Positions 33,194-49,063 of a stretch of 55,669 bases of DNA are shown in pieces. Position numbers and translations under genes: made by a program. Source of the stretch: Humidesulfovibrio sp. GTDB lineage: Bacteria > Desulfobacterota > Desulfovibrionia > Desulfovibrionales > Desulfovibrionaceae. The notes below the pieces were generated by a model, which saw only the letters and a list, made by a program, of their open reading frames with translations, was not told the origin of the DNA and did not search any database. Every line of letters begins with the position of its first letter. Position 1 is the stretch's first letter. The stretch lies in NCBI RefSeq assembly GCF_030689645.1, contig NZ_JAUYFU010000063.1, positions 1 through 55,669 on the forward strand, in the 5' to 3' direction.

Positions 33194-34276
33194 CTAGGCC
33201 TTTTTGAGGTTCATGACGCCGACCAGCAGGCAGAAGCCCAGAGCGACGAAGGTAGCGGCCATGCCGTTGGGGCCAAGGCCTGCTGGCGAACTGGCCCAGC
33301 CGAAGTTGTGGGCAAGGCCAGCGGCAACCAGCATGCCCATTACGAACACGGCTGAATCACCGTCCCCTTCGCCAGCCAGGATGAGCTGCCGGCCCGGGCA
33401 ACCACCAGCCAGGGCGAAAGCCAAACCCGCAACGGCCATGCCCATGAAGTTCCACAGCCCATCTGTGTGCGCGATGGGTTGTCCTTCAAAGCCAAGCTTG
33501 AACTGTCCCAGCGCCAGGTTGGCAACAAAGGCCACCAGCACAAAAGCCAGGACGCCAGAGAATAGGTGCATCTGGCGAAACAAGAACAGATCCCGCAGGG
33601 CGCCCATGGTGCAAAAGCGGCTGCGCTGAGCCAGCACACCGATGATGAGCCCACCGGCGATGGAGATGAACAATGATGCGCGGGCGGCGCCCGGCCCTTT
33701 CACCGAGGCCCAGAGCCAATTCAAGGTGCCGGCAACGGGATCAGGCTGGAGGAAGAAGCGGACAACCAGAAGCCCCACAGCCACAAGGGCGATCATGGCC
33801 CCTGCGGACCAGGGCTGTGCCTGGGAGCGGCTCAAGGTAAACCCGGCCTTGAAGAATCGCGTGCCCACGAAGACTCCAGCGGCCAGACCCAGTATTCCCA
33901 GGATGGCGTTGCCGTCGCCTCCGGCCAGGCGCAGCAGAGCCCGCCAAGGGCAGCCCAGGAACACCAGGGCTCCAGCCATGGCACACATGCCCAGAAAAAA
34001 GCGCGTTGCGGGAGCCGAACCCGCCCGGGCCCGAAACTCGCCCGTCATGAGGGCGGCCGCGAAGGAGCCCAACACAAAGGCCGGAATTTCCGGCCGCAGG
34101 TACTGCACCACAACAGCCTGGTGCAAGCCCAGGCTGCCAGCGATGTCTCGCACGAAACAGGCCACGCAGATCCCCATGTTTGCGGGATTCCCTGCGAACT
34201 GCAACAACGCCGCAGCAAGACCGATGGCCCCGCCTGCTGCCAGGATGCCGGTACGCCCGGCGAAAACATTGGCCAT
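33194..34276 (-). CDS. yedE: YedE-type selenium/sulfur transport membrane protein
   Basis: The 360-residue membrane protein has two sulf_transp (YeeE/YedE) repeats and roughly ten hydrophobic segments. Characteristic cysteine/glycine loops include GICVACFVRDIAGSLGLH, FLGCPWRALLRLAGGDGNA and GGCPGRQLILAGEGD. The seleno-YedE (FdhT) subgroup co-occurs with selenium use. GGGGGGTGGGG precedes the start. It leads the cluster yedE-tusA-DUF3343-kinase, consistent with import or handling of a selenium compound. Confidence 0.88.
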   Translation of the reverse strand: MANVFAGRTGILAAGGAIGLAAALLQFAGNPANMGICVACFVRDIAGSLGLHQAVVVQYLRPEIPAFVLGSFAAALMTGEFRARAGSAPATRFFLGMCAMAGALVFLGCPWRALLRLAGGDGNAILGILGLAAGVFVGTRFFKAGFTLSRSQAQPWSAGAMIALVAVGLLVVRFFLQPDPVAGTLNWLWASVKGPGAARASLFISIAGGLIIGVLAQRSRFCTMGALRDLFLFRQMHLFSGVLAFVLVAFVANLALGQFKLGFEGQPIAHTDGLWNFMGMAVAGLAFALAGGCPGRQLILAGEGDGDSAVFVMGMLVAAGLAHNFGWASSPAGLGPNGMAATFVALGFCLLVGVMNLKKA

Positions 34277-34495: not shown

Positions 34496-35680
34496 TTATT
34501 CGGCCACAGGAGCGGGCTTCTGGGAAGCGCCGGTCTCCTGCTTCACCTCGGTGGCGATCTTGAACAGGATGGTCACCACCAGGGCGCCGGTTCCGTAGAT
34601 CATGAGCGAGATGAGCAGTTCCTTGCCGGTGGGCCAGTAAGGAGCGATGGTCTCGAACGGCGTGGGATTGAAGCCTCCGATCAAGAGGCCAAGGCCCTTG
34701 TCGATCCAGGTGGCGATGACCAGGATGGCCAGCGACCAAGGCAGCAGCTTCACGTTGTTGCGCAGCTTGGGCGGGATGAGCAGCGCCAAGCTGATGATGG
34801 CGAAGGCCGCAGCAGTCCACATGAAGGGCACCAGCTCACTGTGACCGTCGTACCCCGCAAACAGGTAAACGATGGAGTGGGTGTGGCCCGGGATGGAGGA
34901 GTAGAAAGCCGTGAACACTTCCAGAAGGAAGAAGAACACGTTGATGCACATGGCGTAAGTGATGATCTTGGCCAGGGTGGCGATGCCCTCGGCTTCGGCC
35001 TTGAAGGTGGTCACCTTCTCGGTGAGCATGATCACCAAAAGCAGGATGGCCGGGCCGGAGCAGAACGCGCTCGCCAGGAAGCGGGCGGCCAGGATGGCGG
35101 TAAGCCAGTAGTGGCGGCCGGGAAGGCCCTGGTACAGGAACGCCGTGACGGTGTGGATGGAGAAGGCCCAGATGATGGACACATAGGCCAGGATCTTGCT
35201 CCACTTGGGGTGGGGCAGGTTCTGGCGGTCGCATTCAAGGCATGTCCAGCCCACCAGCAGGTTCAGCATGAGGTAGCCGTTCAGCACCAGCATGTCCCAG
35301 AACAGAATGGAGTTGGGCGTGGGGAACAGCACCACGTTCAGCATGCGCTGGGGCTGGCCGATGTCGACCACGATGAAGCCAAGGCACATGACGACAGCGG
35401 CGATGGCCATGAACTCGCCGAAAATGACGAGATCCTTGAATTTTTTATAGTTGTGAAAGTAGTACGGCAACACGATCATGACGCCGGAGGCGGCCAGACC
35501 GACCAGGTACGTGAACTGGGCGATGTAGAAGCCCCAGGAGACGTCGCGGCTCATGCCAGTGATGGTCAGACCTTCCATGAGCTGCATTACATAAGCGCCG
35601 GAGGTGCCTGCAATGACCAGGAGCAGGAACCCGACCCACAGGTAGTACTTGGGACTTCCTTTAAGTGCTTTTTCGAGCAT
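34496..35680 (-). CDS. dsrP: DsrP, NrfD-type membrane subunit
   Basis: The 394-residue NrfD/PsrC-family protein has about ten transmembrane helices (for example WGFYIAQFTYLVGLAASGVMI). It is the quinone-interacting membrane subunit of the DsrMKJOP complex, which links menaquinone to the DsrC-trisulfide branch of sulfite reduction. It is last in the operon, followed by a terminator. Order (M-K-J-O-P) and length fit the family. Confidence 0.95.
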   Translation of the reverse strand: MLEKALKGSPKYYLWVGFLLLVIAGTSGAYVMQLMEGLTITGMSRDVSWGFYIAQFTYLVGLAASGVMIVLPYYFHNYKKFKDLVIFGEFMAIAAVVMCLGFIVVDIGQPQRMLNVVLFPTPNSILFWDMLVLNGYLMLNLLVGWTCLECDRQNLPHPKWSKILAYVSIIWAFSIHTVTAFLYQGLPGRHYWLTAILAARFLASAFCSGPAILLLVIMLTEKVTTFKAEAEGIATLAKIITYAMCINVFFFLLEVFTAFYSSIPGHTHSIVYLFAGYDGHSELVPFMWTAAAFAIISLALLIPPKLRNNVKLLPWSLAILVIATWIDKGLGLLIGGFNPTPFETIAPYWPTGKELLISLMIYGTGALVVTILFKIATEVKQETGASQKPAPVAE

Positions 35681-35689
35681 GACCGCCCC

Positions 35690-36463
35690 CTAGATGATGT
35701 AGTAGACGCCCGGTTCGGTGCCGAGCGCCGGCTTGCGCCGGATGGTGTAGTGCTCGCGCAACAGCTTGCGCACCTCGGAGTTGGCGTCGGTGAGGTCCCC
35801 GAAGACCACGGCGCCGTTGGAGGCCTCTGCACAGGCGGGCTGCTTGCCATAAGCCAGCCGCTCCACGCAGAAGTTGCACTTCTCAACCACGCCGCGCATG
35901 CGGGTGGGGAATTCCTTGTTCAGCGTGGTCAAATCCAGGTGCTTGCGCGGCTCCATGAAGTTGAAGCTGCGAGCGCCGAAGGGACAGCCGGCCATGCAGT
36001 AGCGGCAGCCGATGCAACGGTGATAGTCCATGGCCACAATGCCGTCCGGGCGCTTGTATGTGGCCTGGGTGGGACACACACGCACGCAGGGGGCGTTGGT
36101 GCAATGGTTGCACAAAAGCGCGAACTGACGCTTCTCAACGCTCTCGTCCATGTAGTTGTTGGGCTGATCAAAGGCCTGCTCGTAGCCTGCGGCCCAGATC
36201 CACATCACGTTCTGATTGCCCGGGATGTTCGGCACGTTGTGCACCGAGTGGCAGGCTTTGGCCAGCACGTCGATGGCTTCCTTGGTGCCGCACTTCTTGG
36301 TGTCGATGACCATGCCCCAGCGCTTGGCGTTCACAGCGGTTGCGCTGTCCTTGATGCTGGAGCCAGCGCCGGAAACGGCCAGCGCGCTGCCTGCGGAGGC
36401 CGCGCAAAGCCCTGCGGCGGCGACCCCCATAAACTTCAGGAAGTTTCTTCTGGTGTGGTTCAT
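35690..36463 (-). CDS. dsrO: DsrO, periplasmic iron-sulfur subunit
   Basis: The 257-residue protein has a twin-arginine signal (RRNFLKFMGVAAAG) and several ferredoxin-type clusters, including CNHCTNAPCVRVCP and CIGCRYCMAGCP, as expected of the periplasmic DsrO subunit that connects DsrJ and DsrP. Its start overlaps the dsrJ stop (ATGA at 36460-36463). CGGAGGGG lies upstream within dsrJ. Confidence 0.95.
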   Translation of the reverse strand: MNHTRRNFLKFMGVAAAGLCAASAGSALAVSGAGSSIKDSATAVNAKRWGMVIDTKKCGTKEAIDVLAKACHSVHNVPNIPGNQNVMWIWAAGYEQAFDQPNNYMDESVEKRQFALLCNHCTNAPCVRVCPTQATYKRPDGIVAMDYHRCIGCRYCMAGCPFGARSFNFMEPRKHLDLTTLNKEFPTRMRGVVEKCNFCVERLAYGKQPACAEASNGAVVFGDLTDANSEVRKLLREHYTIRRKPALGTEPGVYYII

Positions 36464-36849
36464 TTCTTCAACCCCTCCGGCTGGATGTGGCAATCCCAAC
36501 AGTAGGGGGTCACAGCTGCGTCATTGTGGCACTTGTCGCAGAACTCCGCCTTGTTGGTATGGCACTTCATGCAGGTCTTCTGCAGGCTCATCTCGAACTC
36601 TTTGCCCTTGCTGTTGACATAGACCCACTTTCCGTCGCGCAGGGACCAGTCGCGCCAGTCGTTCAGGAGCTGCATGTGCTTGGTGCGCATGAACTCCTTG
36701 CTCTCGATGCACTCTTTCTCGTTTTCCGGCATCTTGAGCTTGGGCTGCGAGTAAGCCGCCTTGCCCATGTTGTAGGCGAAGGGGGCCAGGAAGACGCCCA
36801 GGAAGATCACCAGTCCGGTGATGATTTTGCCGCCATTATACAGTTTCAT
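36460..36849 (-). CDS. dsrJ: DsrJ, triheme cytochrome c
   Basis: The 129-residue protein has one N-terminal membrane anchor (IITGLVIFLGVFLAPFAY) and three heme-binding motifs, CMKCH, CDKCH and CWDCH. A cysteine outside these motifs (C47, in KECIES) matches in position the cysteine proposed as an unusual axial heme ligand in studied DsrJ proteins. It sits in the periplasmic part of DsrMKJOP and starts just after dsrK. Confidence 0.95.
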   Translation of the reverse strand: MKLYNGGKIITGLVIFLGVFLAPFAYNMGKAAYSQPKLKMPENEKECIESKEFMRTKHMQLLNDWRDWSLRDGKWVYVNSKGKEFEMSLQKTCMKCHTNKAEFCDKCHNDAAVTPYCWDCHIQPEGLKK

Positions 36850-36850
36850 C

Positions 36851-38485
36851 TTACTCCTCCTCCATGCCGGGCAGGGGCTCCTGGCGAAGGTTCATGGTGC
36901 GCTCTTCCTCACCGTCCAGGATGATGGCGTTGCCCACCAGCTCGTGCAGACCGGTGATTTTGACGCCCGGGGCCCAGTAGTCGGCCAGGGGAATCAAGGT
37001 GGCGCGGTCGATGGCGCACACGCAGGCCATGGTGTTCACGCCGTGCTTGTCGACGACGTGCTTCAGGGCGTTGCCGCGTGGCAGGCCGCCGCGCATGCGG
37101 ATCTCCATGATCTCGTCGGTGTTGAGGCCGGAGCCGCCAGCGCAGCAGAAGGTCTGCTCGCGGATGGTGCTTTCGGGCATTTCATGGAAGTTGTCCACGA
37201 CGCTGTTCAACACGTAGCGGGGCTCGTCGAACATGCCCATGGCGCGCGCGGTGTTACAGGAGTCGTGCCAGGTGGCGATGATGTCGGAGTTGCGGCTCTT
37301 GTCGAGGTTCAGCTTGCCGTGCTTGATGAGGTCGGCGGTGAACTCGGCGATGTGGACCATCTTGGTCTGCGCGGCGTTCTTGAACACCGTGCCGGTGATG
37401 GGGTTCACCGGGGTCTGCATCTGCGGTCCCTGAAGGTTGCCGTTCATGGTGTCCATGTACTGGTTCACCACGCGCCACATGTGGCCGCACTCGCCGCCAA
37501 GGATCCACTTGGCGCCCAGGCGGTTGGCCTCGGAGTACATTTTGCCGTTGATGGCCTTCATCATGTCCGAGTGGGTGAACAGGCCGAAGTTGCCGCCCTC
37601 GGAAGCGTATGTGCTGAGCGTGTAGTCGAGGCCGATGGCGTCGAACATGATCAGGTAGCCCATGAAGGTGTAGATGCCCGGATCGGCGAACACGTCGCCG
37701 GACGGGGTGATGAACAGCACTTCGTGGCCCTTCTCGTTCAGGGGAACGTTCAGGCGTTTGCCGGTGATGGTCTCGATGTCGTCGACCATGAACTCGACGA
37801 TGTCCTTGAAGGCGTGCGGCTGGATGCCCAAGTGGTTGCCGGTGCGGGTGCAGTTGGCCACCGGCTCCAGGATCCAGTTGATGTTGACGCCCACAAGGTG
37901 CAGCAGTTCGCGCGCCATCATCGTCACTTCAGCGGTGTCGATGCCGTAGGGGCAGAAGAGCGAGCAGCGGCGGCACTCGGTGCACTGGTAGAAGTAGAGG
38001 AACCATTCCTTGAGGACGTCCTCTTCCATGACGCGGGCGCCGGTGAGCTTGCCCAGGATCTTGCCGGCCAGGGTGAACTCGCCGCGGTAGATGGAGCGCA
38101 TGAGCTCCGCGCGGAGCACCGGCATGTTCTTGGGATCGCCGGAGCCGATGAAGTAGTGACACTTGTCGGCGCAGGCGCCGCAGCGCACGCAGATGTCCAT
38201 GAACAGCTTGAGCGAACGGTATTTGTCCAGACGTTCGCGGAAGCCGTTGACGACGATTTCCTTCCAGTTGGAAGGCAACTGCCAGTCGGGGTCGGCCGGG
38301 TTCCAGGTGCGCGGGTTGCCGAACACGCCGGGAACCTCGTGCATCAGGTACTCGACCTTCTCCAGCTTGGCCGGGTAGGCCCAGCGGCCCGGAGAAAGGT
38401 CGTTGGGAAGGTCCATCCAGTCGGTGGCTGGCGGCGCATAGTTGATGCTCTTGAGCATCTCATCTGGTTTGATGATTTTTGCCAT
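36851..38485 (-). CDS. dsrK: DsrK, HdrD-like catalytic subunit
   Basis: The 544-residue cytoplasmic iron-sulfur protein has two ferredoxin clusters, CVRCGACADKCHYF and CTECRRCSLFCPYG, and C-terminal CCG-type sites including CCAGGSGL with WHDSCNTA, like heterodisulfide reductase HdrD. It is thought to reduce the DsrC trisulfide. GAGGAG lies 5 nt before the start. It is second in the operon after dsrM. Confidence 0.95.
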   Translation of the reverse strand: MAKIIKPDEMLKSINYAPPATDWMDLPNDLSPGRWAYPAKLEKVEYLMHEVPGVFGNPRTWNPADPDWQLPSNWKEIVVNGFRERLDKYRSLKLFMDICVRCGACADKCHYFIGSGDPKNMPVLRAELMRSIYRGEFTLAGKILGKLTGARVMEEDVLKEWFLYFYQCTECRRCSLFCPYGIDTAEVTMMARELLHLVGVNINWILEPVANCTRTGNHLGIQPHAFKDIVEFMVDDIETITGKRLNVPLNEKGHEVLFITPSGDVFADPGIYTFMGYLIMFDAIGLDYTLSTYASEGGNFGLFTHSDMMKAINGKMYSEANRLGAKWILGGECGHMWRVVNQYMDTMNGNLQGPQMQTPVNPITGTVFKNAAQTKMVHIAEFTADLIKHGKLNLDKSRNSDIIATWHDSCNTARAMGMFDEPRYVLNSVVDNFHEMPESTIREQTFCCAGGSGLNTDEIMEIRMRGGLPRGNALKHVVDKHGVNTMACVCAIDRATLIPLADYWAPGVKITGLHELVGNAIILDGEEERTMNLRQEPLPGMEEE

Positions 38486-38545
38486 GTCTTCTCCTCGCGG
38501 AAAAAGTTTAGTGCTCGCAGGTCCGGGGGGCTTTATGAGCCGCGG

Positions 38546-39568
38546 TTAGGCGGCGTCCTCCGGGCTCTTATCCAGGGGCAGGCCAGCCTCAAACATGGGC
38601 TCGCGGAAGTCGTCCTCGTAAGCCTCGTAGCTGTGGGGCTTGATGGCCGGATTGTTCCAGACGTTCTCGTAATGCACCATGCGGGTGTCGTTGGGCATGT
38701 TGCGCGTGGGCGAAAGGAACACGCCGCCCATGTGCATGAGCTTGGAGAAGGGGAAATACACCAGAAGCGTGCTTACCAGGAAGATGTGAACAAAGAAGCT
38801 CACATCGACGCCGGCGGGAACCTTGAAGTTGAAGGTCGCCAGACCCATGGCCACGTCCTTGATGGACATGACGTCAACCTTGACGATGTAGCGCATGTAC
38901 ACGCCGGAAAGGGCGATGGCGAGAATGAGGAACAGCGGGAAGTAGTCGTTCACCAGGGAGATGTAGCGCACCTTGGCGTCGATGAACCTGCGCGCCAGCA
39001 GCATGGTCAGGCCGGTCAGGAGCAGCAGGTCGGAAATATAGATGGCAGGCGTCAGGATCTGCAGGACGCTGTCGCTCCAATCAAGAAAGGCCAAAGGCGC
39101 AGGCACCGGCTGCAGGAACAGGCGCAGGTGGCGGACGGCGACGATGAGGAAGCCATAATGGAACAGGATGGCGAAAAGCCACAGCCACTTGGCGGAAACA
39201 TACGCCACAATCGGATTTTTGCCGTCGTCGTGCTTGAGCACGACCTTGGTGTTGCGGAACAGGGAGCGGAAGGTCAAGACCTCAAGCACCATGCGCATAA
39301 AGGTCTGCGGGCCGGTGGAGGGGTTGTCCCACTTGTTCTGGGGGATCCAGTCGAGCGACTGCTGCTGGCCGCCAGTGGTGGGAATGCGGAAGGGCACCGG
39401 GCTTTTGGCCCAGGAGATGATCTTGCACACGAACCCGACCAGAAAAATAACAAATGCCGTGCCTGGGATGCAGTACGCGAAGATGGTTTGCATCTTTGCC
39501 GCGCCCGCCCCGACTGTGGCGATCACCACCAGGGCCAGGACCATAAGGAGTGAAAAGATCGCTTTCAT
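38546..39568 (-). CDS. dsrM: DsrM, NarI-like cytochrome b
   Basis: The 340-residue membrane protein has histidine-bearing helices typical of NarI/HdrE diheme cytochrome b subunits (for example LFAILFHYGFLIVAVRHLRL). It passes electrons between menaquinone and DsrK. The start at 39568 follows GAGGTGA at the right distance. It is the first complex subunit of dsrMKJOP. Confidence 0.94.
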   Translation of the reverse strand: MKAIFSLLMVLALVVIATVGAGAAKMQTIFAYCIPGTAFVIFLVGFVCKIISWAKSPVPFRIPTTGGQQQSLDWIPQNKWDNPSTGPQTFMRMVLEVLTFRSLFRNTKVVLKHDDGKNPIVAYVSAKWLWLFAILFHYGFLIVAVRHLRLFLQPVPAPLAFLDWSDSVLQILTPAIYISDLLLLTGLTMLLARRFIDAKVRYISLVNDYFPLFLILAIALSGVYMRYIVKVDVMSIKDVAMGLATFNFKVPAGVDVSFFVHIFLVSTLLVYFPFSKLMHMGGVFLSPTRNMPNDTRMVHYENVWNNPAIKPHSYEAYEDDFREPMFEAGLPLDKSPEDAA

Positions 39569-44183: not shown

Positions 44184-44780
44184 CTAAATTTGGATGACCT
44201 TGCCTGCCGCGCTCAGGCTGGTGACCACATCGAGCATATTGGTGGTGTCGCCCACCCTCCTCTTTTCCGTGAGGCCGAAGAATCCCAGACAGGTGCCGCA
44301 AACCAGGATGTCCACGCTCGAGGCGGCCAGGGCTTCCAGCTTCTCCAGGCAGGGGTGCCCCTCTGTGGACAGCTTGACCCCGCCGTTGACCAGCACCACG
44401 CGCCACAGGCTTTGCCCCAGCTCCGGCAGCGTCGCCAGAAAGTTCAGCATAAGCTTGCCGCCCAGTTCCTCGCTGCCTGCGCCGATGGACTCTGCGGTGA
44501 TGAACACCACGGTCTTGCCCTGAGGCGCTTGCGTCGGGGTAGGCGCTGCTGCTGGCATGGCCGCATCACGGCTGGCGCAGATGGTCCATTCGCCCATGTT
44601 CTGGGTCCTTGAGACCGCAAAACCTTTGCCAGCAAGCAGACGCGCCACGTTCTCCAGCGCGCCAGGGTCATCCACAATGACCTTCACGGCCAGAGGCGCT
44701 TCCTTCTCAATGCACTCCAGGCAACGCAGCACTGGGCCAGGGCAGGCCAGCCCGCGACAGTCCAGGGTGGTGGTGCTCAT
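44184..44780 (-). CDS. yedF: YedF selenium-metabolism protein
   Basis: The 198-residue protein joins an N-terminal TusA domain (LDCRGLACPGPV) to a C-terminal DsrE-like domain with LVCGTCLGFFGL, the arrangement of selenium-metabolism YedF, usually found near selD or yedE in selenium-using bacteria. The CxxC of its DsrE part aligns with UGKC in the DsrE-like gene at 46852-47172. Single gene, divided from the flavoredoxin gene by a terminator. Confidence 0.92.
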   Translation of the reverse strand: MSTTTLDCRGLACPGPVLRCLECIEKEAPLAVKVIVDDPGALENVARLLAGKGFAVSRTQNMGEWTICASRDAAMPAAAPTPTQAPQGKTVVFITAESIGAGSEELGGKLMLNFLATLPELGQSLWRVVLVNGGVKLSTEGHPCLEKLEALAASSVDILVCGTCLGFFGLTEKRRVGDTTNMLDVVTSLSAAGKVIQI

Positions 44781-44968: not shown

Positions 44969-45964
44969 CTACTTCAAAAGCTCGGCCAGCTTCTTGGCCA
45001 CGGCAAAGGCGTCGGCCACGTAGAGCACATCGGCCTTGCCCTGGGCCCAGCCGCAGCCCGCGTCCAGGTTGATGGCGCGGCGTTCGCCGATGAAGCGCCA
45101 GCCCACAACGTGGGGCTCCTCGCCGTGGCAGCAGGTGGCCAGTCCCTTCTGGTGGCGCGGGGTGGAGCCGGTCTGCCCCACCTGATGCATGTGGGTGAGG
45201 AACGGCAGGGCCGCGCCCTCGCCGCTCTGGTCCACCAGGGACTTGGAGCTGCCCAGGGAACACTGGGTGGCGGCAAGCAGGCTCAGGATGAGCGAGCTGG
45301 CGTCGTCCAGGTGCTTCTGTCCGTCGGGCTGGGTCTTGCCCCAGCCTGCGCCCGCCACTAGCAGCAGCTTGGCGTCCGGACGGATGGTCTGGGCGTCGGC
45401 AGCCGGAGCGATGACGCCAGTGACTGTGGTGCGGGTGGCCGGGGCCACGTTGAGCATCTCCACAGCGGCGGAGCCGGCAGCCTCGCAGGCCGCGAAGCAG
45501 CCGGAATCAACAGTCACCAGCCAGGGCCGGGCGTCGCGCTCGATTTTGCCAAGCATGCGCTGGCGGTAGAACCAGCGGGTGGCGACGATCTTACCGTCAG
45601 CAGCCTCAAGGCCGGTGAGGCGGGTATCGACCGCCGCGCCCAAGCGCTGGGCCACGCCTGCGGCCACGCGGCTGGCGCGGGAAGTCGAAGGCATGACGAT
45701 CATATCGGCGCCAGCGGCTTTGGCCATGGCCTCGCAGGCCGAGGCGTCGGAGCCGTAGCGGGCGGTGGCGAACTCGCCCCCGGCCACGCCGTAGAATTTC
45801 GCAGCGCCGCAACCGGCGATCTGGTCAGCGGCCTTCTGGACCTCGGCCCCGTAGAGGCCGACCATAAGCTCGCCGCCAAGGCCCTTGGCTGCGGTCAGGG
45901 CCTCGCAGGCGGCCTTGCCCAGGCTGCCGTCGGCTTCACTATGCGCAAGGAAAAGCACTTTCAT
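44969..45964 (-). CDS. etfA: Electron transfer flavoprotein alpha subunit, divergent
   Basis: The 331-residue protein starts at MKVLFLAHSEADG after GAAGGAG. It has the ETF alpha N-terminal fold (MVGLYGAEVQKAADQIAG) and the FAD-binding C-terminal domain. In that domain the usual GISGAIQH region is replaced by ATCCHGEEPHV, while QVGQTGST and the C-terminal AINLDAGCGWAQGKADVLYVAD are recognisable. It probably binds FAD and forms a heterodimer with EtfB. It is last in the operon; the changed FAD loop, with paired cysteines, is unusual. Confidence 0.82.
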   Translation of the reverse strand: MKVLFLAHSEADGSLGKAACEALTAAKGLGGELMVGLYGAEVQKAADQIAGCGAAKFYGVAGGEFATARYGSDASACEAMAKAAGADMIVMPSTSRASRVAAGVAQRLGAAVDTRLTGLEAADGKIVATRWFYRQRMLGKIERDARPWLVTVDSGCFAACEAAGSAAVEMLNVAPATRTTVTGVIAPAADAQTIRPDAKLLLVAGAGWGKTQPDGQKHLDDASSLILSLLAATQCSLGSSKSLVDQSGEGAALPFLTHMHQVGQTGSTPRHQKGLATCCHGEEPHVVGWRFIGERRAINLDAGCGWAQGKADVLYVADAFAVAKKLAELLK

Positions 45965-45989: not shown

Positions 45990-46793
45990 CTAAGCCCGGA
46001 TCCAGTCCGCGAGCTCGCGGGCGATGTCGTCCACCGGGGCGTCCTTGACGATGCGCGTGTCGCGGCGCTGGCTGGGCACCTCGACGCTGGCGTACCGCAG
46101 GCCCTCGCCCTTGAGCGGCGAAGGCGTGGCCTTGGCCAGGGCGGGCATGATGAGCCGCATGTTCTGCATGCCCACCTGGGGATTGTTCGGCGGCTCGGGC
46201 AGGTTGCCAGTGGCCCAGCCCAGCAGCGCCGGTGCGCCCTGGCAGGCGGACTTCTGGTAGCAGCCGCCCTCGATGCGCTCAAGCACGGTAAAGCTGCCGT
46301 CCTCGGCCAGGACGAGCTCGTCCACGCCCTGGAACTGGTCGGTGATTCCAAGCATCTCGCCCACCATCTGGAGCACTGCGCCCGTGCCGCGCGAGGCCGA
46401 CTGCCAGCCGCCGAACACGAGGAGCTTGGACTTGTCCAGACCGGGGATCTTCTCCACCGCGCCCGCAAGGGCCTTGGCCGTCTCGGTCGCGTCGGCGAAT
46501 CCGCCCGCGGGGCCGTCCAGCACCACTATCTCAAAGGGCACCTTCTGGGCCACGTTCATCATCACCTGCTGCAGCTTGGCCTTGGGCCCAAGGGCCACGA
46601 GGTACACCTTGCCCTCGACCTTCTTGGCCAGGCTGGCGGCCTCGTAAAGGGCGTGGCCCGCCCAGGGGTCAAGCACCGCTGGCAGCATAAGCTCGTTCTT
46701 GAGCGCCGGACCGGTGGGCCCGGCGATGGGCTCCAGAGTCTGCAACGGGTCGGGCACGATGGACCCGAGCACCACGATCTGCAATCCTTTCAT
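45990..46793 (-). CDS. etfB: Electron transfer flavoprotein beta subunit
   Basis: The 267-residue protein begins KGLQIVVLGSIVPDP and carries the ETF beta nucleotide-binding fold, with LGPKAKLQQVMMNVAQK and DATETAKALAGAVEKI resembling the family AMP-site region. AAGGAG lies 6 nt before the start. It is followed by etfA and preceded (58 nt) by the DsrE-like gene. Confidence 0.87.
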   Translation of the reverse strand: MKGLQIVVLGSIVPDPLQTLEPIAGPTGPALKNELMLPAVLDPWAGHALYEAASLAKKVEGKVYLVALGPKAKLQQVMMNVAQKVPFEIVVLDGPAGGFADATETAKALAGAVEKIPGLDKSKLLVFGGWQSASRGTGAVLQMVGEMLGITDQFQGVDELVLAEDGSFTVLERIEGGCYQKSACQGAPALLGWATGNLPEPPNNPQVGMQNMRLIMPALAKATPSPLKGEGLRYASVEVPSQRRDTRIVKDAPVDDIARELADWIRA

Positions 46794-46851
46794 GCGATCT
46801 CCTTGCGGAAAGTGTTGGTTCGCGGAAAGAGCCGGGACCCGCCCGGCTCCG

Positions 46852-47172
46852 TCAGTAGTTCAGGATCCTGTCCGCCGCCTTGACCAGGGCGGAAAGGGTC
46901 TTCATGTTCGCGCGGCTGATGTGCTCGTCCGCCTCCACGCCGTGGAGGTCCATGCACTTGCCTCAAGCCGCAAGAACCCCCTCGCTCAGGGCGAACAGCT
47001 TGGCCTGCTGGCGAATGGGGAACACTTCGCTGTCCCCGCCATACAGGGCCACTGCCGGTCCGTTCAAAAAAACAGTGACCTCTTCGCCCTCCTCAAGCAG
47101 AACATTGCCGAAACGTACAGCGTTCCACTTGATTTCAGGGCTGTCGGTCGAAACGACGAGAAGTATCTGCAT
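46852..47172 (-). CDS. DsrE-like protein, probable selenoprotein (in-frame TGA)
   Basis: Reading through the TGA at 46963-46965 gives a 106-residue protein of standard DsrE length: MQILLVVSTDSPEIKW, then LAA-U-G-K-C-MDLHGVEADEH, ending AADRILNY with stop TGA at 46852-46854. U sits at the first cysteine of the family CxxC, as in CGTC of YedF at 44184. A hairpin follows the TGA (46932-46948). The start is 4 nt after the Etf-QO stop. A gene call ending at the TGA would give only 69 residues without the active site. DsrE proteins carry or transfer sulfur; a selenol would give a strong redox centre. Confidence 0.9.
46932..46948 (-). promoter_or_regulatory. Candidate bacterial SECIS hairpin
   Basis: In the minus-strand RNA CCTCCAC pairs with GTGGAGG (7 bp) around the loop GGC. 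The stem begins 14 nt after the TGA and the loop lies 21 nt after it, within the 16-37 nt window expected for bacterial SECIS elements. G occupies the first loop positions, as required for SelB binding. Confidence 0.75.
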
Positions 47173-47176
47173 GCGG

Positions 47177-49063
47177 CTAGTTCTCTGCCGAGTGCAGGCC
47201 GCCAGCGCCTGCCTGAAAGTCCACGTTGGCGGACTCGCCGCCGTTTGGCGCAGGCTTGCTGCAGTTCCAGATGCAGGCGCCGCAGTGCACGCACTTTTCG
47301 CGGTCGAACAGCGGTGCGCCGCCCTCCGGGTTGGTGGCGATGGCCTGGCCGGAGCAGGCCTCGATGCAGACCTTCTCGTCGCAGGTGCGGCACACATTCT
47401 GGTTCTTGAAGGTCACGTGGTCGCGGTAGCCCGGAGGGGCCTGCACCTTGCCGCCCATGAGCAGCGCGTCCTGGTGCGACACGAGGAGCTGGCCGTCGAA
47501 GTTGATGGCTGGCCAGCCCGCGCGGTCCATGAGCGCCCCGTGCAGAGGCAAGCCCTTGGCCGTGCATTCGCGGCGGATGGCGGCGATTTCGTCCGCAGTG
47601 ATGCGGCCCTGGAAAAAGGATTCGATGCTGGGGATGCGCTCGTGCGGTTTCTTCGACGCGCCGGGCCAGAACAGCTTGCCTTCGGACAGGCCGGTGAGAG
47701 CCATGCCGATGAGGCCCGGCACCACGCCCACCTGGAAGCCGTCGCGGGCTTTCTCAGCGGCCTTGGCCTCGCGCTCCAGCCAGGAGTCGCGGCGGCGGCG
47801 AACGTAGCTCTGCTCCAGGTTCTCGCGGGTGAAGGGCTTGTCGGCCTTCATGAGTTCAAGGACGCTAACGCCCAGGAGCACGCCCGAGGTCCAAGCCTCG
47901 TCGAAGCCCGATCCGGTGAGCACGTTGGTTGTGCCGGAGCCTTCGCCGATGCGCGCAAAGCCGTCGCCCACCAGGTGCGGCTCGCCCTTGCGGCCAGATT
48001 CCTGGAGGCTCTTGGCGCCCCAGGAGCGCATGCGCCCGCCCTTGATGTGCTTCCAGATGGCCGGATGCTGCATCCAGTGCTGCAAATAGCGGTACCCGGT
48101 GCGCACGGGGCTGTCGTACCAGCTGGGCACAAAAATACCGAGAGACGCCACATTGCCGGGATAGACGTAGAGAAAGCCGAAAATCTCGGGTTCGGGGAAG
48201 CCCAGGGTGTGCAGCACCGTGCCTTCCTTGAGCTGGCAGCCCTCGGGCAGGTCCACCACCATCTTCATGCCCACGGCCCACTCGCGCGCGTGGTTGCCCA
48301 GCGGCAGGCCCAGCTTCTCGTCCAGCTTGCGGCCCACGTTGCCCACCGGGCCATCGCCCACCACGGTGAGCTGGCAGCGGATGTCCATGCCGGGCATGAA
48401 TCCGGCCTCTGGGTTTCCGCGCTTGTCCACGCCCTGGTCCTGCAGGCGCACGCCCGCCACCACCTGGTCGAACATGATGGGCTCGGCAACGGGAGTGCCC
48501 GGCCAAATCTGCGCCACTCCCTGCCCCATGATCTGCCCGCCGGCCCACTGGTTGAACTGGCCCATGGAGAGCAGGATGCCGGGCTCTTTACGCAGGAAAT
48601 TCGGCGTGTAAGGCAGCGCGTACGCGTGGTCCTTGGTCAGCCCCAGGGCCTTGAGGGCTTTGTCGGCCAGGCGCAGGGCAAGGGGCTTGCGGCTCGCGCC
48701 GATGGGGTCAAGAAGGTAAAGCACCTCTTCATGGGCCACTTCGGTGGCCAGGGGAATCTGCATGAGGTCCAGGTCCGGAAAGCTGGCGCGGATGCCGCGG
48801 CCCTTGGTGACCACGCCGGACACGCCAAAACCTATGTCGTCGGCGCGCTCGTAGCAGATGACCTGGGGCGGCATGCCGGGCATGGCCTTGCTTTCGACGA
48901 CCGGTGTGCCGTCTTCGTTCATGAGCCCCTTGGACAGGGTGTGCAGAAAGCCGCCCATGGCCGGGCCGAAGCCCACGCAGGCGATATCCACGTCCATGCG
49001 CTGGCGTTCGAATCCTTCAGGCAGGGCGCCTTCAGGCTGGGGGCTGGTGTTTTCGTCGGTCAT
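47177..49063 (-). CDS. Etf:quinone oxidoreductase-like flavoprotein with ferredoxin tail
   Basis: The 628-residue protein has an N-terminal FAD domain (VDIACVGFGPAMGGF), a central catalytic region of the FixC/ETF-QO family (for example LTVVGDGPVGNVGRKLDEKL), and a C-terminal two-cluster ferredoxin (CRTCDEKVCIEAC; CVHCGACIWNC). It would move electrons between EtfAB and menaquinone or a ferredoxin. The start at MTDENTS follows CGAGGAA; the frame is open further upstream. It leads the operon Etf-QO, DsrE(Sec), etfB, etfA. Confidence 0.83.
   Translation of the reverse strand: MTDENTSPQPEGALPEGFERQRMDVDIACVGFGPAMGGFLHTLSKGLMNEDGTPVVESKAMPGMPPQVICYERADDIGFGVSGVVTKGRGIRASFPDLDLMQIPLATEVAHEEVLYLLDPIGASRKPLALRLADKALKALGLTKDHAYALPYTPNFLRKEPGILLSMGQFNQWAGGQIMGQGVAQIWPGTPVAEPIMFDQVVAGVRLQDQGVDKRGNPEAGFMPGMDIRCQLTVVGDGPVGNVGRKLDEKLGLPLGNHAREWAVGMKMVVDLPEGCQLKEGTVLHTLGFPEPEIFGFLYVYPGNVASLGIFVPSWYDSPVRTGYRYLQHWMQHPAIWKHIKGGRMRSWGAKSLQESGRKGEPHLVGDGFARIGEGSGTTNVLTGSGFDEAWTSGVLLGVSVLELMKADKPFTRENLEQSYVRRRRDSWLEREAKAAEKARDGFQVGVVPGLIGMALTGLSEGKLFWPGASKKPHERIPSIESFFQGRITADEIAAIRRECTAKGLPLHGALMDRAGWPAINFDGQLLVSHQDALLMGGKVQAPPGYRDHVTFKNQNVCRTCDEKVCIEACSGQAIATNPEGGAPLFDREKCVHCGACIWNCSKPAPNGGESANVDFQAGAGGLHSAEN

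Follow-up and report, generated by a model that had tools for sequence, protein, structure and literature searches.

Does a TGA triplet inside a small dsrE-like gene end the protein, or is it read as selenocysteine? The question is raised by a stretch of 55,669 nucleotides of Humidesulfovibrio sp. DNA (the window), in which a minus-strand gene of 106 codons and a stop, at 46852..47172, begins with ATG at 47170-47172, runs for 69 codons, meets TGA at 46963-46965 and continues for 36 sense codons to the next in-frame stop at 46852-46854. When the frame was re-read it agreed with an earlier note on this DNA, and the two pieces of family sequence which that note placed downstream of the TGA, GKCMDLHGV and AADRIL, are both present. 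Our answer is that the gene codes for a 106-residue DsrE-like selenoprotein, in which the UGA is decoded with the help of SelB and a hairpin and the selenol of residue 70 (Sec70, in the motif UGKC) is predicted to do sulfur chemistry; we give this reading a probability of almost nine in ten.

Relatives and the codon at position 70

The 106-residue product, with the TGA read as Sec, matches the Pfam family DsrE (PF02635) over residues 1-105 with 32.1 bits, the cut-off being 22.7 bits, and 46 of 52 aligned family members match the same model at E 1e-3. The window's selenoprotein matches nothing in NCBIfam, and at E 1e-3 at most 4 of the 52 aligned members match any of the NCBIfam models. An Rfam scan of 46000-48000 gave nothing relevant, a phmmer search of the single protein against PDB gave no match, and the AlphaFold model made from the single sequence is poor (pLDDT 48.8). 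A scan of genome contigs for relatives found one only, a CGKC form.

Relatives were collected from 119 genomes of the same family, the own genome included, and from 395 genomes of the phylum, some of which are shared with the family sample. In the family 38 genomes match: 32, again with the own genome included, hold a close type in which TGA occupies the same codon, two a distant TGA type and two a Cys form, and two matches are weak. The close-type relatives are 51-72% identical to the window protein (the window itself apart), and a single TGA is found at each of 33 places, genome G015 holding two of them. In the phylum sample 80 of the 395 genomes match; the DsrE-like selenoprotein is common there.

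Translation of the loci gave 116 distinct aligned stretches, 96 with the TGA and 20 without. The TGA motifs are UGKC (42 stretches), UGVC (34), UGKL (9), UGKS, UGSC, UGTC and UKKA (2 each) and UGRC, UGAC and ULTC (1 each). The earlier note had proposed to look for homologues with Cys at the UGA position, and 15 of the 20 TGA-free stretches are of this kind; the other five are three weak CPMC relatives, one partial copy and one half of a frameshifted copy. The protein alignment A3 comprises 52 of 102 usable rows, and in all 52 column 70 is Sec or Cys; E13, R20 and G65 are the other invariant columns. Cys73 stands below 90% and belongs neither to the invariant columns nor to the nearly invariant ones.

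Two observations on more distant members may be added. The UGVC stretches (34 distinct ones) form a second, distant subfamily spread across many families of the phylum (L154, L157-L167 and L108-L130, e.g. L163:6001-6306). At L155:6001-6747 and L116:6001-6724 there are tandem pairs with a CGTC form beside a TGA form; the TGA form is UKKA and has no Cys in the aligned stretch.

The TGA could be a true stop, which it is in table 11; the gene would then be broken, or its product 69 residues long, and what follows the TGA would be a relic. Some copies in the collection do look broken: L091 and L094 carry an extra TAG, L153 is frameshifted and L124 is partial. On the other hand the same-codon TGA is followed by conserved protein in the 32 genomes of the close type and in further relatives. 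Homologues with a conserved stop at this position had been named beforehand as a finding that would speak against selenocysteine; the TGA is indeed kept, but the conserved protein runs on past it. In the 36 relatives that align without gaps, pairwise differences at the three codon positions are 0.35/0.33/0.55 in codons 83-106, past the TGA, and 0.27/0.17/0.51 in codons 1-69, so that the DNA beyond the TGA varies in the way expected of coding sequence. Together with the constraint on the hairpin described below, this makes a true stop very improbable, even when the two observations in its favor from the Sec genes (see below) are counted.

The hairpin and the selenocysteine genes

A SECIS-like hairpin of seven pairs with the loop GGC is found at 46932..46948 on the minus strand, 14 nt after the TGA, and the apical loop opens with a G 21 nt past the TGA, as the earlier note had it. 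Seen in the window alone this hairpin is at chance level: it folds with an unremarkable energy (z -1.62; 16 of 200 shuffles do as well), and when the window was scanned loosely for TGAs flanked by open frame and accompanied by a hairpin of at least six pairs with a G-first loop, 20 places came up, this one included.

The relatives give a different picture. The hairpin set consists of the 51 TGA stretches with at least 80 bits that remain when L091 (extra TAG), L106 (divergent, with a stem of its own) and L094 (late start and extra TAG) are left out; the folding step covered 53 sequences, with L091 and L106 included. In the 51 sequences a seven-pair stem with a GGN loop is found in the same place, all seven pairs being formed in 46 of them and six in the other five. 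Synonymous shuffles which keep the protein, and which ignore the relatedness of the sequences, left all seven pairs in a mean of 3.9 of the 51, with a maximum of 10 in 1000 trials. Paired cells amount to 98.5%, against 31-55% when the partners are slid. Pairs 2, 3, 4 and 6 vary on both sides in some sequences, whereas the count of further pair types is not above that of shuffles (77 of 500 were as high). Third-position change is 0.28 within the hairpin stretch and 0.51-0.55 elsewhere. None of the 15 Cys forms makes all seven pairs; two to six of the seven positions pair in them, with six in L105 and five in L048, L052 and L117. An intactness far beyond what the protein needs, together with the covariation, indicates that the hairpin is constrained at the RNA level, and the SECIS element expected of a DsrE-like selenoprotein is thus present on these comparative data. 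For the 34 UGVC sequences RNAalifold gave a very weak consensus (-0.47), and we therefore claim no hairpin for that subfamily; GGUCU-like loops recur, by eye, after its TGA.

It is because the relatives keep the TGA, the frame and the hairpin that the selenocysteine reading is strongly supported, where the window by itself would be at the level of chance. From these comparisons the UGA at residue 70 is very likely decoded as selenocysteine: SelB with Sec-tRNA would read it at codon 70 owing to the downstream hairpin, in the manner of bacterial Sec insertion.

The earlier note had asked whether the genome holds the Sec genes. Three of them are present, tRNA-Sec with 84.3 bits, selB with 374 bits and selD with 318 bits and one TGA of its own; selA is found with 596 bits in a frame which matches well except for one in-frame TAG (L017:2089-2091, contig C60). 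Among the selA matches listed, only this copy has a stop inside, those of the relatives being open. The TAG may stem from faulty sequence or from a gene that broke recently; if genuine, it may leave the strain unable to make Sec. A reading of it as pyrrolysine was dropped, the best PylS match in the genome having 24.5 bits against a cut-off of 178.

A suppressed stop or a variant code could in principle put some other amino acid at position 70, and an open frame in a single genome would look the same. We found no support for this, and hold it to be even more improbable than a true stop: the genome has the Sec genes, TGA serves as terminator in 19 of the 36 gapless relatives of the dsrE-like gene itself, and the site holds Cys in 15 of the 20 homologues that lack the TGA.

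In the family sample selA is above the cut-off in about 99-100 of the 119 genomes. It is found in 31 of the 32 close-type genomes, the exception being G008, and since selA is so common anyway this co-occurrence gives modest support only. Of 73 genomes asked for selB, chosen mostly for a dsrE match, 67 are above the cut-off. The six below it are G008, its congener G049, which has no dsrE match, G398, which has the Cys form, and G014, G127 and G151, in which tRNA-Sec scores 73-85 bits. G391 and G169, both from a different family, have the dsrE-like gene less than 1 kb from selB.

G008 and the TAG in selA are the two observations just referred to which favor a true stop, G008 retaining a TGA gene without detected Sec machinery. 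In its searched genome (three contigs, 95% complete) neither selA nor selB is above the cut-off, and selD has no TGA. Its best tRNA-Sec match has 47.9 bits, the gathering score being 47, and non-Sec matches in the window's own genome also reach 47-48 bits. The TGA copy of G008 (L019 / L057) has an intact hairpin and is some 1.8 kb away from the end of a contig. In a tree of 54 rows and few columns the Cys form L048, from Desulfovibrio sp. OttesenSCG-928-A18, has the gene of G008 as its neighbor (97/77, not starred), and both belong, like the window's gene, to a starred group of five rows. One small clade thus pairs a Cys form with a TGA copy from a genome without detected Sec genes, a placement which would fit, weakly, a loss of Sec followed by replacement with Cys.

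The operon of the genus

The earlier note had linked the gene to yedE, yedF, tusA and DUF3343 nearby. These turned out to be neighborhood only, as the gene sits between an ETF-QO-like and an ETF-beta-like gene. Upstream on the same minus strand, at 47177..49063 (start set by eye), is a FixC/ETF-QO-like flavoprotein with a ferredoxin-like end (ETFQO_UQ-bd 40.3 bits, Fer4 below cut-offs), which we take to be a FixCX protein; its stop lies 4 nt ahead of the dsrE-like ATG. The ETF-beta-like gene (EtfB) follows 58 nt downstream at 45990..46793 (PF01012, 44 bits), and the ETF-alpha-like gene (EtfA) at 44969..45964 (PF01012, 85.9 bits, start by eye), both on the minus strand. Between the selenoprotein gene and ETF-beta, at 46794-46851 on the minus strand, there is a GC-rich 8-bp inverted repeat with a short T run; the terminator scan made no call on it. 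Within the genus, long GC-rich inverted repeats with A/T-rich centers were noted by eye between FixCX and EtfB or between dsrE and EtfB, at L069:7791-7997, L173:1272-1500 and L178:2302-2559.

This arrangement prompted the idea that the protein works in the operon's ETF (FixABCX-like) complex, as a subunit or as a partner. In three genomes of the genus the gene does lie 4 nt after FixCX and ahead of EtfB. EtfB is found in 12 of the 15 genomes of the genus, and the FixCX-EtfB junction is readable in seven; the gene is there in three (the window, G083 and G029) and missing from four, and for this reason the idea was dropped. Outside the genus the ETF position is not kept in the loci examined: among 121 loci inspected, 24 of which (L084-L107) are only 1.8-3.3 kb long, ETF genes are nearby only in the genus loci L018, L058 and L069. 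We consider a role as ETF partner unlikely; the dsrE-like gene is a helper present in some genomes of the genus and absent from others, and does not belong to the ETF complex as a constant component. Between G083 or G029 and the window FixCX is 87-88% identical, EtfB 88-89% and the selenoprotein 64-72%.

Clustering of the neighbors (1066 frames, 96 loci) gave largest groups covering 11 and 10 of the 85 loci that make up the two main subfamilies, by eye a group of signaling proteins and one of ArsR-like regulators; it should be noted that the frame picking is crude in GC-rich DNA and that some groups are antisense frames. Elsewhere in the window, at 34496-39568 on the minus strand, are genes with NrfD, Fe-S and nitrate-reductase-gamma-like domains, presumably a dsrMKJOP cluster, from which the host is read as a probable sulfate reducer. 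A Sulf_transp (YedE-like) gene at 33194-34276 comes after the NrfD/Fe-S genes.

Known relatives and the active site

DsrE-like selenoproteins of the UxxC kind are already known and have been in print since 2005-2006. They were reported from the Sargasso Sea (PMC1088965) and from Desulfovibrio vulgaris (PMC1794560), the latter bearing out the earlier note's remark that deltaproteobacteria have them, and ocean samples yielded the selenoproteins DsrE 1 and DsrE 2 (PMC2398784). A 2022 review lists the DsrE-like family as UxxC (PMC9312934), and a 2026 review has the UxxC DsrE-like family predicted with high confidence and most such functions uncharacterized (PMC13188914). For Desulfococcus multivorans one paper names an abundant DsrE, outside the five Sec genes that it lists (PMC5109826). 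A literature search mostly outside subscription journals found, in the portions of text it covered, neither a functional test of DsrE-like selenoproteins nor an ETF setting nor a form lacking the Cys at +3. What is added here is how widely the protein occurs in the phylum sample, the existence of forms that lack a Cys at +3, the FixCX-EtfB-EtfA operon setting in three of the seven readable genomes of the genus, and the small clade around G008 and L048.

The window protein has what the published DsrE-like selenoproteins (PF02635) are described as having, a DsrE domain with an in-frame UGA where homologues have Cys, Sec first in the UxxC (here UGKC), and a hairpin after the UGA; no difference emerged in a comparison which, for the D. 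vulgaris protein and WP_014524487.1, was of descriptions and not of sequences. YedF, encoded in the same window at 44184..44780 on the minus strand (TIGR03527, 191.9 bits), shares the DsrE-fold domain. The claim that the TGA falls on the first Cys of its CGTC motif failed at the level of pairwise BLASTP, in which the dsrE-like product and the window's YedF do not match, and was borne out by profile comparison with hhalign (probability 87.5), where CGTC aligns with UGKC. Unlike the selenoprotein, which is DsrE only in Pfam and has no NCBIfam match that would make it a YedF, YedF has a TusA domain as well and no TGA. Among solved structures, a clear profile match was obtained with E. coli YchN alone (PDB 1jx7, E 1e-6), in which a Cys of CKTC aligns with Sec70; unlike the selenoprotein, YchN is a cysteine protein, of undescribed function. 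To DsrE of DsrEFH and TusD of TusBCD the likeness is one of proposed sulfur chemistry. In DsrEFH the sulfur attaches to one Cys of DsrE, Cys78, from which DsrC receives it (PMC3397948); Sec70 is likened to this Cys by chemistry and not by alignment. In contrast to those systems the flanking genes at the locus are FixCX-like and EtfB-like, and the partner subunits dsrF and dsrH are not alongside.

What would the selenol do? One possibility is thiol-disulfide exchange by the UxxC pair, with the +3 Cys essential. It agrees with the reviews, which list the family as UxxC and expect redox functions (PMC9312934, PMC13188914), with the +3 Cys in 83 of the 96 TGA-bearing stretches and with Cys73 in 34 of the 36 gapless close relatives. 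Against it are the 13 stretches of the 96 without a +3 Cys (9 UGKL, 2 UGKS and 2 UKKA): one is a fragment, and five of the other 12 (L097, L102, L104, L155 and L116) lack Cys altogether in the part aligned. These 13 make a sulfur carrier with a single selenol more likely than a mandatory UxxC pair, and we incline, by a modest preference, to selenol-centered sulfur carriage or reduction; an essential pair is a serious contender at somewhat less than even odds.

We infer, then, a function as sulfur carrier, in which the Sec70 selenol would occupy the position of the active cysteine in the DsrE fold and carry or reduce sulfane sulfur. In the UGKC forms Cys73 could resolve Sec70, while the UGKL, UGKS and UKKA relatives would manage without. 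A more specific and rather speculative proposal is that the lone selenol takes up sulfane sulfur and passes it on, e.g. to DsrC or TusA, in place of the DsrEFH relay which sulfate reducers reportedly lack, the Cys of UxxC being an optional device for release.

Gene callers without a selenoprotein model stop such genes at the UGA, and with so few NCBIfam matches it is easy to overlook the protein. The role of selenium in a DsrE-fold protein can be approached by comparing the UGKC, UGKL and CGKC forms that occur naturally. If the sulfur-carrier proposal is true, a selenium-based module for sulfur trafficking would be common in the phylum.
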